Shown piece after piece: positions 1 to 5,670 of a DNA stretch of 28,960 bases (positions are counted from its first letter, which is position 1; each line of letters opens with the position of its first letter). The position numbers and the translations under genes are program-made. The stretch is from a virus. Under the pieces are notes generated by a model. The model made no database searches, was not told where the DNA came from, and saw nothing but the letters and a program-made list of their open reading frames with translations. The stretch spans positions 1 to 28,960 of the IMG/VR virus record IMGVR_UViG_3300032093_000631; one strand, written 5' to 3'.

Positions 1-2390
1 TTTTTGTATGACAAATCTGCCTTGACATCACGCTCACGGCACCAAATTTTAAGCCATTGCGTCAGCTTGGTGGTGGTCAATTTTGGAATGCTTTTGAGCT
101 TTTCAATCATGTCCTCCTTCTTCATCGTTAGGTAATAATCGGTATTTTTTTCATTGACATAGAACTGCGCCAGGTTGACCGCATTGGTCACAAGTTTGCC
201 CTCATTGGTGGTGACCCGTGCCGTCTTGAGGCAGTCCGGAGCGAAATCAAAGAAGTTCATCGCAAGCTGATCATCCATGTAATTGACAAAATCGGGGTGC
301 GTTTCCTTTATCAAAGTACGATTCGCGCTATTGGCCGTTAAATGGCTCAAATTTCGCCTATCTGATGCCAGCCATGTCTTGGCACAATAGATCATGTAAT
401 TGTCAAATTTGGCCCATTCCTGCTCGTCCCAGCCGCTAAAGAACGCACGACCGAACTCGTCAATCGGTTTATGCCGTGCATTGAAGTGCTTAACGACCGG
501 AAACTCAAACTTGCGATCAATGGTTGACTCGTCAGAATTTCCTACTGCGAAGTTGGATGTAATAAATATCTTGGGTGACTTCTCGTATGGGATGATGACT
601 TGCTTTTGGTTCTTCTTGTTGACCTGAAGAGACTCGGTAATTACGCTGTAAAGTTTCGTAAAATGGAAACTTTTTTCCACATCATCAATGAAAATGATGT
701 CAGTGTCGAACTCAATGTTCTGCCAAAGGAATGAGTCGTGAAAGTTGAATGACTTGCCATCCATCCGGCATGCCTTGCGAAATTTCTCAATCATCTTGAA
801 CACAAGTCCCTTGCCTGACCGGCCCTGGCTCTCCCCCTCATCCTCCGGGTCAATGTCCTCCATCAAGATTACTGCCTTGGTAATCAGATCATCCTTGTGT
901 CGATTCATCGCGTATCCCAAGATCGCCTCAAGCTTCTGAACATTTTCCCCGCCGAGGATGCTGATGAACTTGGCCGAATCGCAATCTTTGTGCTCTGCGT
1001 GTTGGTAATCCCGGTCAATGATGCTATCCTCCCAGATATAACCTTGCATCTCCTTGTATAGCACGTACTCAATCCGATCAGCCCATACCTTCACTGCCCG
1101 ATTGCGGAAGAAAAGCCATGTGCAATCAGCTGTGTCCTGAATGAAATTATCGTCAAGTTCATCCATCATGGCCATGAAGCCACCGTTCTCGGAGAAGATA
1201 GTGCCGACCCGCTCATGAAAATAGTCACGCACTTCAGCCTCTAATTCATTGAGAAATTGCCTGACGATATCCTTGGGCTCTCTGATGCTGACCACATTGT
1301 TGATCACCTGAACCATCTGACCGTTGTATGTCCGGTATCCAAGCTCCTTAAAATACCAGTTCAGTTCAGTGTACTTGACCTGAATCTTGTTGCCTACCTT
1401 GACCCAAAACTGACCCTCGTTGACAATATTGCGCCCGTATCCGTCCTCCGCAAGTTTAGCCTGAGCACGCATGAAATTTCCGTCATGATAGTAGGTCTTG
1501 TAAATGTCGAACGGCCCGTATGGCTTGCCTTGCTCAAACTCTGAATTATGTGTGAATAGGTAGAGACAGTTCTTCAGCGTGTACTTTTCTGCCGTATCCT
1601 TCCAGATGCTTCCTGAATGCGCCTGCGATGTGCTTGGTGACTTAATTACAAGACGGTCATCATGCTCACGCACGACCTTCCAGCCACGTTCCACGATCTC
1701 ATCACGGATATACCGCCAGTCATGTTGCTCATTGAAGACCTTGTAAGGAGCATCATCACGCTGCTTGTCAAACTTGGGTGCAGGATCAATCTCCACTTCA
1801 TTGAACGATCGGCAGATGGCGATGATAAAATTTCGCTCATCACTTGTCAGCGTGGGCATCGTCATCGGATTGCCTTGCTGGAAGAAGTAGCCTGGCGATG
1901 GCGCAGTCTTTACATATCTTTTATTTGACTCATCAAGCCGCTCTATTTTTGCCGCCGTTCCTTTCCCGCTGTGGCATTTAGCCAGTGCGCCATCCCCGCC
2001 TACTGTTTCTCCATAATAATAAATGTGCGCCCCTTTGGATGGTGTACGAGATATGACAAGCTTTGCGTAAAGGTCAGGATCGGCAAGTTCCAAGGTGTTC
2101 AACACCTTGCGTGTAATGCCGGGCTGCACCTTTTCATCTATGTCTATCACCTCCATGTTGCGCCGAAGCATGATGCCGATATGCACATCATCACGTTCAA
2201 AAAAGTAGCTGACATTGTGTGAATTGATTGGGTTTTGTATCAGTTTATGCACATTTGGTATCTCCTTTGTCGGGCTTTTGTCCGGCTTGAGTGGGATGAC
2301 CTGAATGCCATTTGTAATAAGTTCCTGCGCTGCGAGAAAGCAAGCCTTATCAATGATTTCACCTTCTTGTATGTATTCGTAGATGTTCAT
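1..2390 (-). CDS. Primase-polymerase / SF3-D5-like replicative helicase (3' end outside window)
   Basis: I read an open frame of about 796 codons from ATG at 2390 to the left edge with no stop, so the C-terminus is missing. The N-terminal ~200 residues look like an archaeo-eukaryotic PrimPol: a VIPLKPDKSP start, a VIDID metal-binding motif near residues 81-85, and KGAHIYYYG near 119-127 (the GG-x-H-x-Y/F type motif). The C-terminal half carries an AAA+ SF3/D5-like helicase: GRSGKG Walker A near 523-528, DIIFIDD Walker B near 564-570, and PKIFITSN sensor 1 near 606-613. Such fusions prime and unwind phage DNA at the fork. The start overlaps the stop of the 113-aa gene upstream (ATGA), which suggests translational coupling. 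Family assignment is firm; which nucleotides it uses for priming cannot be seen. Confidence 0.9.
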   Translation of the reverse strand, partial: MNIYEYIQEGEIIDKACFLAAQELITNGIQVIPLKPDKSPTKEIPNVHKLIQNPINSHNVSYFFERDDVHIGIMLRRNMEVIDIDEKVQPGITRKVLNTLELADPDLYAKLVISRTPSKGAHIYYYGETVGGDGALAKCHSGKGTAAKIERLDESNKRYVKTAPSPGYFFQQGNPMTMPTLTSDERNFIIAICRSFNEVEIDPAPKFDKQRDDAPYKVFNEQHDWRYIRDEIVERGWKVVREHDDRLVIKSPSTSQAHSGSIWKDTAEKYTLKNCLYLFTHNSEFEQGKPYGPFDIYKTYYHDGNFMRAQAKLAEDGYGRNIVNEGQFWVKVGNKIQVKYTELNWYFKELGYRTYNGQMVQVINNVVSIREPKDIVRQFLNELEAEVRDYFHERVGTIFSENGGFMAMMDELDDNFIQDTADCTWLFFRNRAVKVWADRIEYVLYKEMQGYIWEDSIIDRDYQHAEHKDCDSAKFISILGGENVQKLEAILGYAMNRHKDDLITKAVILMEDIDPEDEGESQGRSGKGLVFKMIEKFRKACRMDGKSFNFHDSFLWQNIEFDTDIIFIDDVEKSFHFTKLYSVITESLQVNKKNQKQVIIPYEKSPKIFITSNFAVGNSDESTIDRKFEFPVVKHFNARHKPIDEFGRAFFSGWDEQEWAKFDNYMIYCAKTWLASDRRNLSHLTANSANRTLIKETHPDFVNYMDDQLAMNFFDFAPDCLKTARVTTNEGKLVTNAVNLAQFYVNEKNTDYYLTMKKEDMIEKLKSIPKLTTTKLTQWLKIWCRERDVKADLSYK

Positions 2391-2728
2391 TTGAAACTTT
2401 TTGACTTAATAATTACACATTCGCCGTCAATAAATCCCATAGCACCCTGCCAGATATCCATGATGTATATGCATGTTTCTTTACATGGCTCTTTTTGAGT
2501 CTGAACTTTTATATTTGAGCCATTTACTTCAATAGACCACAATCTTGGGAATTTGTAGTATTTGTAATAGGAGTCGCAAAAAATACGAATTTTGTGAAAA
2601 TCAAGCTCTGCAGAAGCACTATTTTCAGCGCTGGATACCATCATTGGGTACTTAAAATTGTTAGCGTTCAAAGGTGCCTCAAATGTCATCACATGACCGG
2701 TCTTTAAGAATAAATCATACTTATTCAT
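2387..2728 (-). CDS. Hypothetical protein, 113 aa
   Basis: I do not recognise this protein. It starts at ATG 2728 and ends in an ATGA overlap with the primase-helicase. It is soluble, has no signal peptide or membrane segment, and contains four cysteines, two of them in a KEPCKETC stretch. Its base composition is visibly more AT-rich than the neighbouring replication genes, which may mark a later acquisition. It is the first ORF after the structured RNA at 2742-2832, only 13 bases separating hairpin and start codon, so the RNA could control it and, through coupling, the primase. Confidence 0.7.
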   Translation of the reverse strand: MNKYDLFLKTGHVMTFEAPLNANNFKYPMMVSSAENSASAELDFHKIRIFCDSYYKYYKFPRLWSIEVNGSNIKVQTQKEPCKETCIYIMDIWQGAMGFIDGECVIIKSKSFK

Positions 2729-2741
2729 ACAAAATAATTAA

Positions 2742-2832
2742 GCCCTAAACGACCGGGGGGATACAGCGTCAAAGACGCTCCCGGCCATTTAGGGCCATTA
2801 AATAGTTTCATCAAGCGGTATCCCTACGCTTG
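2742..2832 (-). ncRNA. Structured RNA element with two hairpins and a possible kissing interaction
   Basis: Read leftwards, hairpin A (2812-2832) is a 6-bp stem CAAGCG/CGCTTG with a 9-base loop. Hairpin B (2742-2795) has a 16-bp outer stem, a 6-bp inner stem AGCGTC/GACGCT closed by TTT, and a 7-base 3' bulge GTATCCC (2758-2764). The loop of A contains GGGATAC (2818-2824), the perfect complement of that bulge. The outer stem of B is continuous only in leftward RNA, where two positions become G-U pairs; rightward they are C-A mismatches. The 3' side continues into a T-rich stretch, so B may also act as a terminator. It matches no riboswitch or ribozyme I can name; pistol ribozymes have a similar loop pseudoknot but on the other strand of the internal loop. 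Identity and function are unknown. Confidence 0.6.
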
Positions 2833-2839
2833 GTTCCCA

Positions 2840-2847
2840 CAAATATA
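2840..2847 (-). promoter_or_regulatory. Perfect Bacteroidota -7 box upstream of the structured RNA
   Basis: The minus strand reads TATATTTG, an exact match to TAnnTTTG, directly after the TAG stop of the 76-aa gene. Transcription would begin around 2836, just ahead of hairpin A. No TTTG or TTG -33 element sits at the expected 17-23 bp spacing, so this is only a half-promoter match. Confidence 0.35.
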
Positions 2848-3078
2848 CTACCCCTTCCCCATTTTCTTCACGTCCTCCAAAAGTTTCCGCTGTGCCTCTC
2901 TGATCAGCCTGAACGCTCCGGCCATTGTCTTGATGCGGTCATCGGTCAGTTCATCATAAAGTACACCATCCATCTCGCTGATGGTCACGACCACCGAGAG
3001 TTGATTCTCGATAATGTCGAGCAGATATGCACCGTCTTCGGTCGTTTCATCCGCATCTTTCAGTTCTATGCCCATCAT
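2848..3078 (-). CDS. Hypothetical protein, 76 aa
   Basis: This small acidic-to-basic helical protein is one I do not recognise. It starts with two adjacent ATG codons (3078 or 3075); the first overlaps the stop of the metallophosphoesterase gene as ATGA, so it is probably translated by coupling. The C-terminal half (about residues 45-76) looks like one amphipathic helix ending in KKMGKG. It has no cysteine, signal or membrane segment. Its stop abuts the -7 box at 2840-2847, so it seems to be the last gene of its transcription block. Confidence 0.75.
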   Translation of the reverse strand: MMGIELKDADETTEDGAYLLDIIENQLSVVVTISEMDGVLYDELTDDRIKTMAGAFRLIREAQRKLLEDVKKMGKG

Positions 3079-5569: not shown

Positions 5570-5653
5570 ACCCGAGTGAGGGATTCGAACCCACATTCAC
5601 ACCAATGGTGCGTTCTACCTTGACCTTCAAAGAGGTGCTTGAAATAACTCGGG
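5570..5653 (-). tRNA. Anomalous tRNA-like sequence
   Basis: The minus strand has a perfect 7-bp acceptor CCCGAGT/ACTCGGG enclosing 83 nt, and a T arm GTGGG-TTCGAAT-CCCTC with one mismatch. A D-arm-like segment (GGTC-AAGGTA-GAAC) lies too far from the acceptor: about 20 nt that form their own TTCAA/TTGAA hairpin are inserted between them. The place of the anticodon arm holds only CACC-ATT-GGTG. I cannot assign an anticodon. It could be a decayed tRNA, a tRNA with an insertion, or a tRNA mimic. Confidence 0.5.
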
Positions 5654-5670
5654 TACACAAACCATCCGGG

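Follow-up and report, generated by a model that had tools for sequence, protein, structure and literature searches.

In the leaders of pT181-type plasmids, a terminator-like hairpin lies directly before the replication-initiator gene, and contacts between RNA loops matter there. The repZ leader of the IncB/IncI-alpha plasmids contains a hairpin whose loop pairs with a downstream stretch. Complementary loops are also known from the pRNA of phage phi29, in which a hairpin loop and a bulge-type loop match each other while their sequence drifts freely. In phage HK022, putL and putR RNA folds into two stem-loops where an early transcript begins, just past the promoter (PMC9378689). The pistol ribozyme carries its pairing strand on the left (5') shoulder between P2 and P3 (PMC4604425).

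The window (the whole stretch of viral DNA that was analysed, 28,960 nucleotides) carries a compact element whose parts, like the neighbouring genes, are all read on the minus strand. It begins with a -7 promoter box of the Bacteroidota type, TATATTTG (2840..2847), abutted by the stop codon of an upstream gene encoding 76 aa (2848..3078). Seven bases further comes hairpin A (2812..2832; CAAGCG-TAGGGATAC-CGCTTG), in which folding predicts a stem of 6 bp (2832-2827/2817-2812) closed by a loop of 9 nt, TAGGGATAC (2826-2818). An AU-rich linker of 15 nt (2797..2811) leads to hairpin B (2741..2796), which is predicted to consist of an outer stem of 16-17 bp (2796-2780/2757-2741), an inner stem of 6 bp (2779-2774/2770-2765) and a UUU apical loop. 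Its sequence, GGCCCTAAATGGCCGGG-AGCGTC-TTT-GACGCT-{GTATCCC}-CCCGGTCGTTTAGGGCT, includes a bulge of 7 nt (2758..2764, in braces) on the 3' side, at the junction of the inner and outer stems. This bulge is perfectly complementary to GGGATAC (2818..2824) in the loop of hairpin A, the two strands forming a putative kissing helix. A U-rich tail, TAATTATTTTGT (2729..2740), in a terminator-like position and weak in the window, joins hairpin B to a start codon, the spacing from the end of the hairpin (2741) to the ATG (2728) being 13 nt. The gene that starts there (2387..2728), the first of the operon, encodes a protein of 113 aa with no match in Pfam or PHROG, and its slot is held by unrelated genes in relatives. 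It overlaps the start of a primase-polymerase/helicase gene (3..2390) that runs off the window and whose product matches Pfam Prim-Pol (E 1.6e-4, just under the cut-off), a PHROG DNA polymerase/primase family (E 5e-23) and a PHROG family of unknown function (E 1.6e-57).

RNA folding of the minus strand gave a minimum free energy of -46.4 kcal/mol (z -4.7), and none of 200 shuffles did as well. The plus strand folds less stably (-38.8 kcal/mol), because G-U pairs turn into mismatches. When the letters of the loop and bulge were shuffled, a 7-nt complement arose in 0.13% of the shuffles. The existence of a structured leftward RNA is regarded as near certain. The initial annotation had described two hairpins after a -7 box in the leftward transcript, the second of them continuous on that strand only, placed 13 nt before a 113-aa ORF coupled to the primase-helicase; sequence and folding bear this out, and a recheck found all its coordinates correct.

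Relatives were gathered by searching IMG/VR with the primase and a phosphoesterase, by a motif finder based on the anatomy of the element and by DNA-pattern scans. At a score of at least 34, the motif finder gave 29 matches in 796 kb of related phage DNA, some of them on overlapping contigs, and none in shuffled DNA. The finder matches in L025, L037, L146, L162 and L169, which lack the context of box and U-tract, were set aside as chance. Altogether, 27 distinct elements were found in related metagenomic phages, and phages bearing the element are known from metagenomes alone; phage records searched at the nucleotide level, using the window and an element of the AT-rich group as queries, yielded no relative carrying it. 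The elements belong to a GC-rich group around the window (e.g., L007, L009, L010, L011, L012, L015, L018, L166) and to an AT-rich group (e.g., L021, L027, L029, L032, L039, L049, L075, L086, L112). A covariance model based chiefly on AT-rich elements recovered those of the GC-rich group at E 7e-7 to 2e-4, though it was not built from them, with the exception of L011 and the window element, which were inside this model. The element is single-copy where present (12/19 records); where the covariance model also matched the opposite strand, it was responding to the same palindrome, and these matches were not taken as second copies.

Both stems and the complement are kept in 27/27 distinct elements, while the loop and bulge occur as eight different sequence pairs. 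The loop strands include GGGATA(C), GGGCGC, GCCCAC, GGCCAC, GGGACA, GTGGAAC, GGGAAAC and GGGGAAC, and the bulge is the exact complement each time. As the eight variants span two divergent groups, a single inherited accident is hard to accept. The 7-base complement of the initial annotation, perfect in the window, thereby needs one amendment: six base pairs are universal and the seventh is lineage-specific. Since MAFFT misregistered the two sequence groups, covariation was counted in A11, an alignment of 13 distinct sequences made by covariance model without the kiss; the covariance model R2 was built from untrimmed matches. In A11, 99.6% of 449 cells are paired, both sides change in 30 of the 35 pairs, and the covariation score reaches 0.878, compared with 0.222 for shuffles (a count that is not a probability, the sequences being related to one another) and at most 0.16 for slid partners. 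The kissing helix alone is 100% paired and scores 0.722 versus 0.139. All six pairs of hairpin A covary in the 13 homologs, and in hairpin B both sides change in 14 of the 17 outer and all five inner pairs of the model. The loop-to-bulge contact that had been proposed is thereby supported, with compensatory changes in the stems as in the kiss, and the covariance comparison suggested with it came out in its favour. Each element contains 3-7 G-U pairs; therefore, selection acts on the leftward RNA.

In Rfam 15, a search at the gathering cut-off gave no match for the elements of the window, L007, L009-L012, L015, L021, L027, L032, L049 and L086, and a permissive search with the element returned chance matches only, in agreement with the earlier remark that no family with this layout was known. 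The near-invariant bases are few, namely the loop UAG and some G/C positions of the stems. A riboswitch was considered and rejected, the unpaired bases being variable except for the loop UA(G) and the AU-rich linker. More generally, a riboswitch or ribozyme-like element, one of the functions initially offered, is disfavoured because so few unpaired bases are conserved.

The element immediately precedes the opening gene of the replication operon, irrespective of that gene's product, and the replication genes come after this next gene wherever the contig extends. The next gene encodes a small unknown protein in the window, L009, L011, L015 and L018, a DNA methyltransferase in L007, L010 and L012, a replication-initiator-like protein with an HTH_36 or Lin1244_N domain in L039, L049 and L075, a T5orf172 protein in L086 and a primase-polymerase in L166. 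L009 and L015 share a near-identical element followed by very different genes. This freely changing downstream gene speaks against a feedback by a specific downstream protein and in favour of a generic control placed at the operon's head.

An origin structure had also been put forward, which could be a primer RNA or a cruciform. In its favour, the element always adjoins replication-initiation genes, and its promoter is followed by an AU-rich stretch. However, L069 encodes an initiator that is 86% identical and overlaps the preceding gene, with no element there and none found elsewhere in the record. In the same way, L248-L251 keep the upstream gene of the 76-aa type and a 66% identical primase, and the element is absent. 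It is thus dispensable for the group and, as its G-U pairs point to selection on RNA and not on both DNA strands, we consider an origin structure most improbable.

Several other features were seen around these operons. In L248-L251, the leader before the primase-polymerase is much shorter, with a small GGTAATTACC palindrome, a TCTTTTTT tract and an A-rich start. The variable slot between the RNA and the primase (2387-2728 in the window; also L007, L009-L012, L015 and L018) holds fast-changing proteins of about 100 aa or DNA methyltransferases, which are possibly counter-defence genes. The initiators of L039, L049, L075 and L027 share their C-terminal ~90 aa, whereas their N-terminal halves are unrelated (HTH_36, Lin1244_N, others), a pattern resembling a swap of this domain at the RNA element. 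Furthermore, tRNA-like sequences whose length (86-124 nt) is unusual occur beside normal tRNA genes (window, ~5572-5657 on the minus strand; L009:1843-1948; L012:870-993); those of L009 and L012 match the tRNA model, and that of the window is below the cut-off.

A TA..TT[TCA]G box is located 2-9 nt ahead of hairpin A in 27/27 distinct elements. In Flavobacterium johnsoniae, the box TAHHTTTG spans positions -12 to -5 (PMC6847099), which places the predicted transcription start of the window element at about 2835, where the stem of hairpin A begins or shortly ahead of it. Hosts within the Bacteroidota are indicated by the promoter box, by the A-rich gene starts of these phages and by weakly related proteins in phages of Cellulophaga, Polaribacter and Chryseobacterium; a search of GTDB genomes with the primase and the element gave no match.

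At the other end of the element, a U-rich tail is found in all distinct elements that have sequence past the stem, with 6-9 U in many relatives. The tract of the window is interrupted (UAAUUAUUUUGU), and a consensus terminator scan of the window called no terminator at the element. A frame of 28 codons starting with ATG (2811-2727, minus strand) crosses hairpin B and overlaps the next start codon. A leader peptide encoded across this hairpin (MKLFNGPKWPGASLTLYPPGRLGLNYFV, ending on the next start codon) was rejected, the frame being absent in relatives. Most genes of these phages begin in A-rich surroundings (31-55% A and 15-29% T, frequently with A at -3), and the gene behind the element is an outlier, usually the sole one with 7 or more T among the last ten bases upstream of its start. 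Translation in F. johnsoniae is promoted by adenines at -3, -6, -12 and -13 (PMC6847099). With such adenines favouring translation and the other gene starts A-rich, the U-tract is better read as part of a terminator-like unit of hairpin and U-tract. Plain terminators of this kind are present elsewhere in the same phage genomes, and a hairpin followed immediately by a U-tract upstream of the first gene, one of the marks of promoter-proximal attenuators in general, is found here, though weak in the window.

Tentatively, and with slightly less than an even chance in our estimate, the structured leader would be an RNA checkpoint (attenuator) heading the phage replication operon. A leader of that operon is also the best-fitting of the functions that had been offered at the outset. 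The comparison shows a conserved pseudoknotted RNA together with its strand, promoter box, tail and place; from these we infer the start of the element's own transcript, the split between short RNA and read-through, and the tuning by the kiss. Transcription would begin at the foot of hairpin A; this hairpin and the inner one would fold first, then the bulge strand would dock on loop A, and the outer stem would close as the U-rich tract is synthesised. The kiss would thereby clamp the 5' end of the RNA to the terminator-like 3' hairpin. Some transcripts would end at the U-tract, giving a compact RNA of ~105 nt, and the remainder would continue into the replication genes. The speed or firmness with which the 3' hairpin closes would depend on the contact, and with it the amount of initiator/primase mRNA early in infection. 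As the kiss is compatible with the terminator stem, this would not be a classical antiterminator switch. In the bulge form, the lengths are matched (12-15 bp for the stem of A plus the kiss, 16-20 bp for the outer stem) and the linker measures 11-17 nt among relatives, which would fit hairpin A folding back along the outer stem in one molecule. Dimers may also form.

A hairpin so close to the AUG could instead affect translation. The element might indeed be a 5' leader involved in mRNA stability or translation only, its clamped hairpins shielding the replication mRNA and/or restraining ribosome loading at the AUG, perhaps until RNase III cleaves the long stem. A stem of 16-20 bp could serve as a substrate of this enzyme. 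Hairpin A starts only a few nt from the predicted 5' end, the ATG follows the end of hairpin B by 1-16 nt in nearly all elements, and such a leader would be indifferent to which protein lies downstream. However, it leaves unexplained both a U-tract in genomes of A-rich gene starts and a related unit, beside the terminase gene, that has no directly following start codon (see below), and we hold it to be rather unlikely.

Two other architectures were found. Several phages without the bulge form have, at the same place, a loop-loop version, in which the loop of hairpin A (GTAGTGTG) pairs with an apical loop (CACACTAC), the second hairpin being followed by 5-7 U and the ATG. This pairing covaries: GTAGTATG/CATACTAC (L037, L041), GTAGTGC/GCACTAC (L095) and CCAGCAC/GTGCTGG (GC-rich L057). 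The third version adjoins the terminase gene in AT-rich phages (L113:12370-12470; L226:5162; minus strand of L109, L227, L230 and L237). Its loops of 7 nt (once 6 nt) are fully complementary and covary (GTTGCGG/CCGCAAC, GATGCAA/TTGCATC, TTCGCAG/CTGCGAA, ATTACGG/CCGTAAT, GTAGAG/CTCTAC). This unit has its own -7-like box and a tract of 6-9 U that does not lead directly into a start codon, as would be expected if it were a terminator and not a translation signal; the L113 unit separates the terminase from the structural gene that comes next and is followed by 8 U. Beyond it, L113:12470-12695 is an apparently noncoding, hairpin-rich stretch of ~220 nt with its own TATCTTTG box, before the next long ORF; it has no match in Rfam and is possibly a further structured RNA.

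A kiss between a hairpin at the 5' end and a terminator-like one at the 3' end thus recurs as a principle, in three architectures and at two genome sites. That the contact of the 5' hairpin with a terminator hairpin, via a bulge or an apical loop, itself tunes termination (or builds multimers) is a more novel reading, which we hold to be rather unlikely. A phage sRNA acting in trans has also to be weighed: a stable RNA of ~105 nt would act on another RNA or protein through kissing loops or loop-bulge dimers, and its place before the replication genes would be a matter of packing only. An autonomous unit of promoter, hairpins and U-tract, the second unit beside the terminase gene and kissing sequences that change fast while complementarity is kept would all suit such an RNA. 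Nevertheless, nearly every element is found immediately ahead of the gene that opens the replication operon, the pairing bases are occupied by the kiss and there is no conserved single-stranded seed, so that a trans-acting role seems unlikely.

If the proposed role of the contact in termination is true, what has been conserved across at least three architectures, which occupy two sites of related phage genomes, is the principle and neither the sequence nor the exact fold. The element represents a well-supported additional family of phage RNAs, marked by a compact tertiary contact (~92 nt, kiss of 6-7 bp). It suggests that Bacteroidota phages may gate their replication genes by RNA alone, whichever initiator protein follows. 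The main form also provides at least eight natural orthogonal kissing pairs.

Compared with the systems described above, the element resembles the pistol ribozyme in that the loop of a short 5' hairpin, of similar look, pairs with the junction of two stacked stems. However, the pairing strand is on the 3' side of hairpin B in all homologs, which led to the rejection of this identity; in addition, the ten conserved nucleotides of the pistol catalytic core were not seen in the element, nor was there an Rfam match.

As in HK022 put, two stem-loops come right after a promoter, which would here also be an early one. A put-like antitermination RNA, whose nascent fold binds polymerase after the promoter and lets later terminators of the operon be passed, would share this layout with putL (PMC9378689). 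It is improbable, since few positions are conserved for contact with polymerase, three different architectures exist, and the element occurs in one copy that ends in its own U-tract. Conversely, put has no described loop-to-bulge kiss, has specific polymerase-contacting bases and is not followed by a U-tract and AUG.

The leaders of pT181-type plasmids use an antisense RNA from the opposite strand, whereas the partner loop of the element is in cis; opposite the leader, a -7-like box is found in only 2/27 elements and none is conserved, so that antisense control is unsupported. The repZ pseudoknot opens a ribosome site, whereas the kiss of the element leaves both stems intact and masks no Shine-Dalgarno sequence. 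Lastly, phi29 pRNA pairs between molecules on the packaging motor, whereas the element is found at the replication genes of phages that carry a terminase large subunit, and this genomic position makes a pRNA-like role unlikely for the replication-side element.
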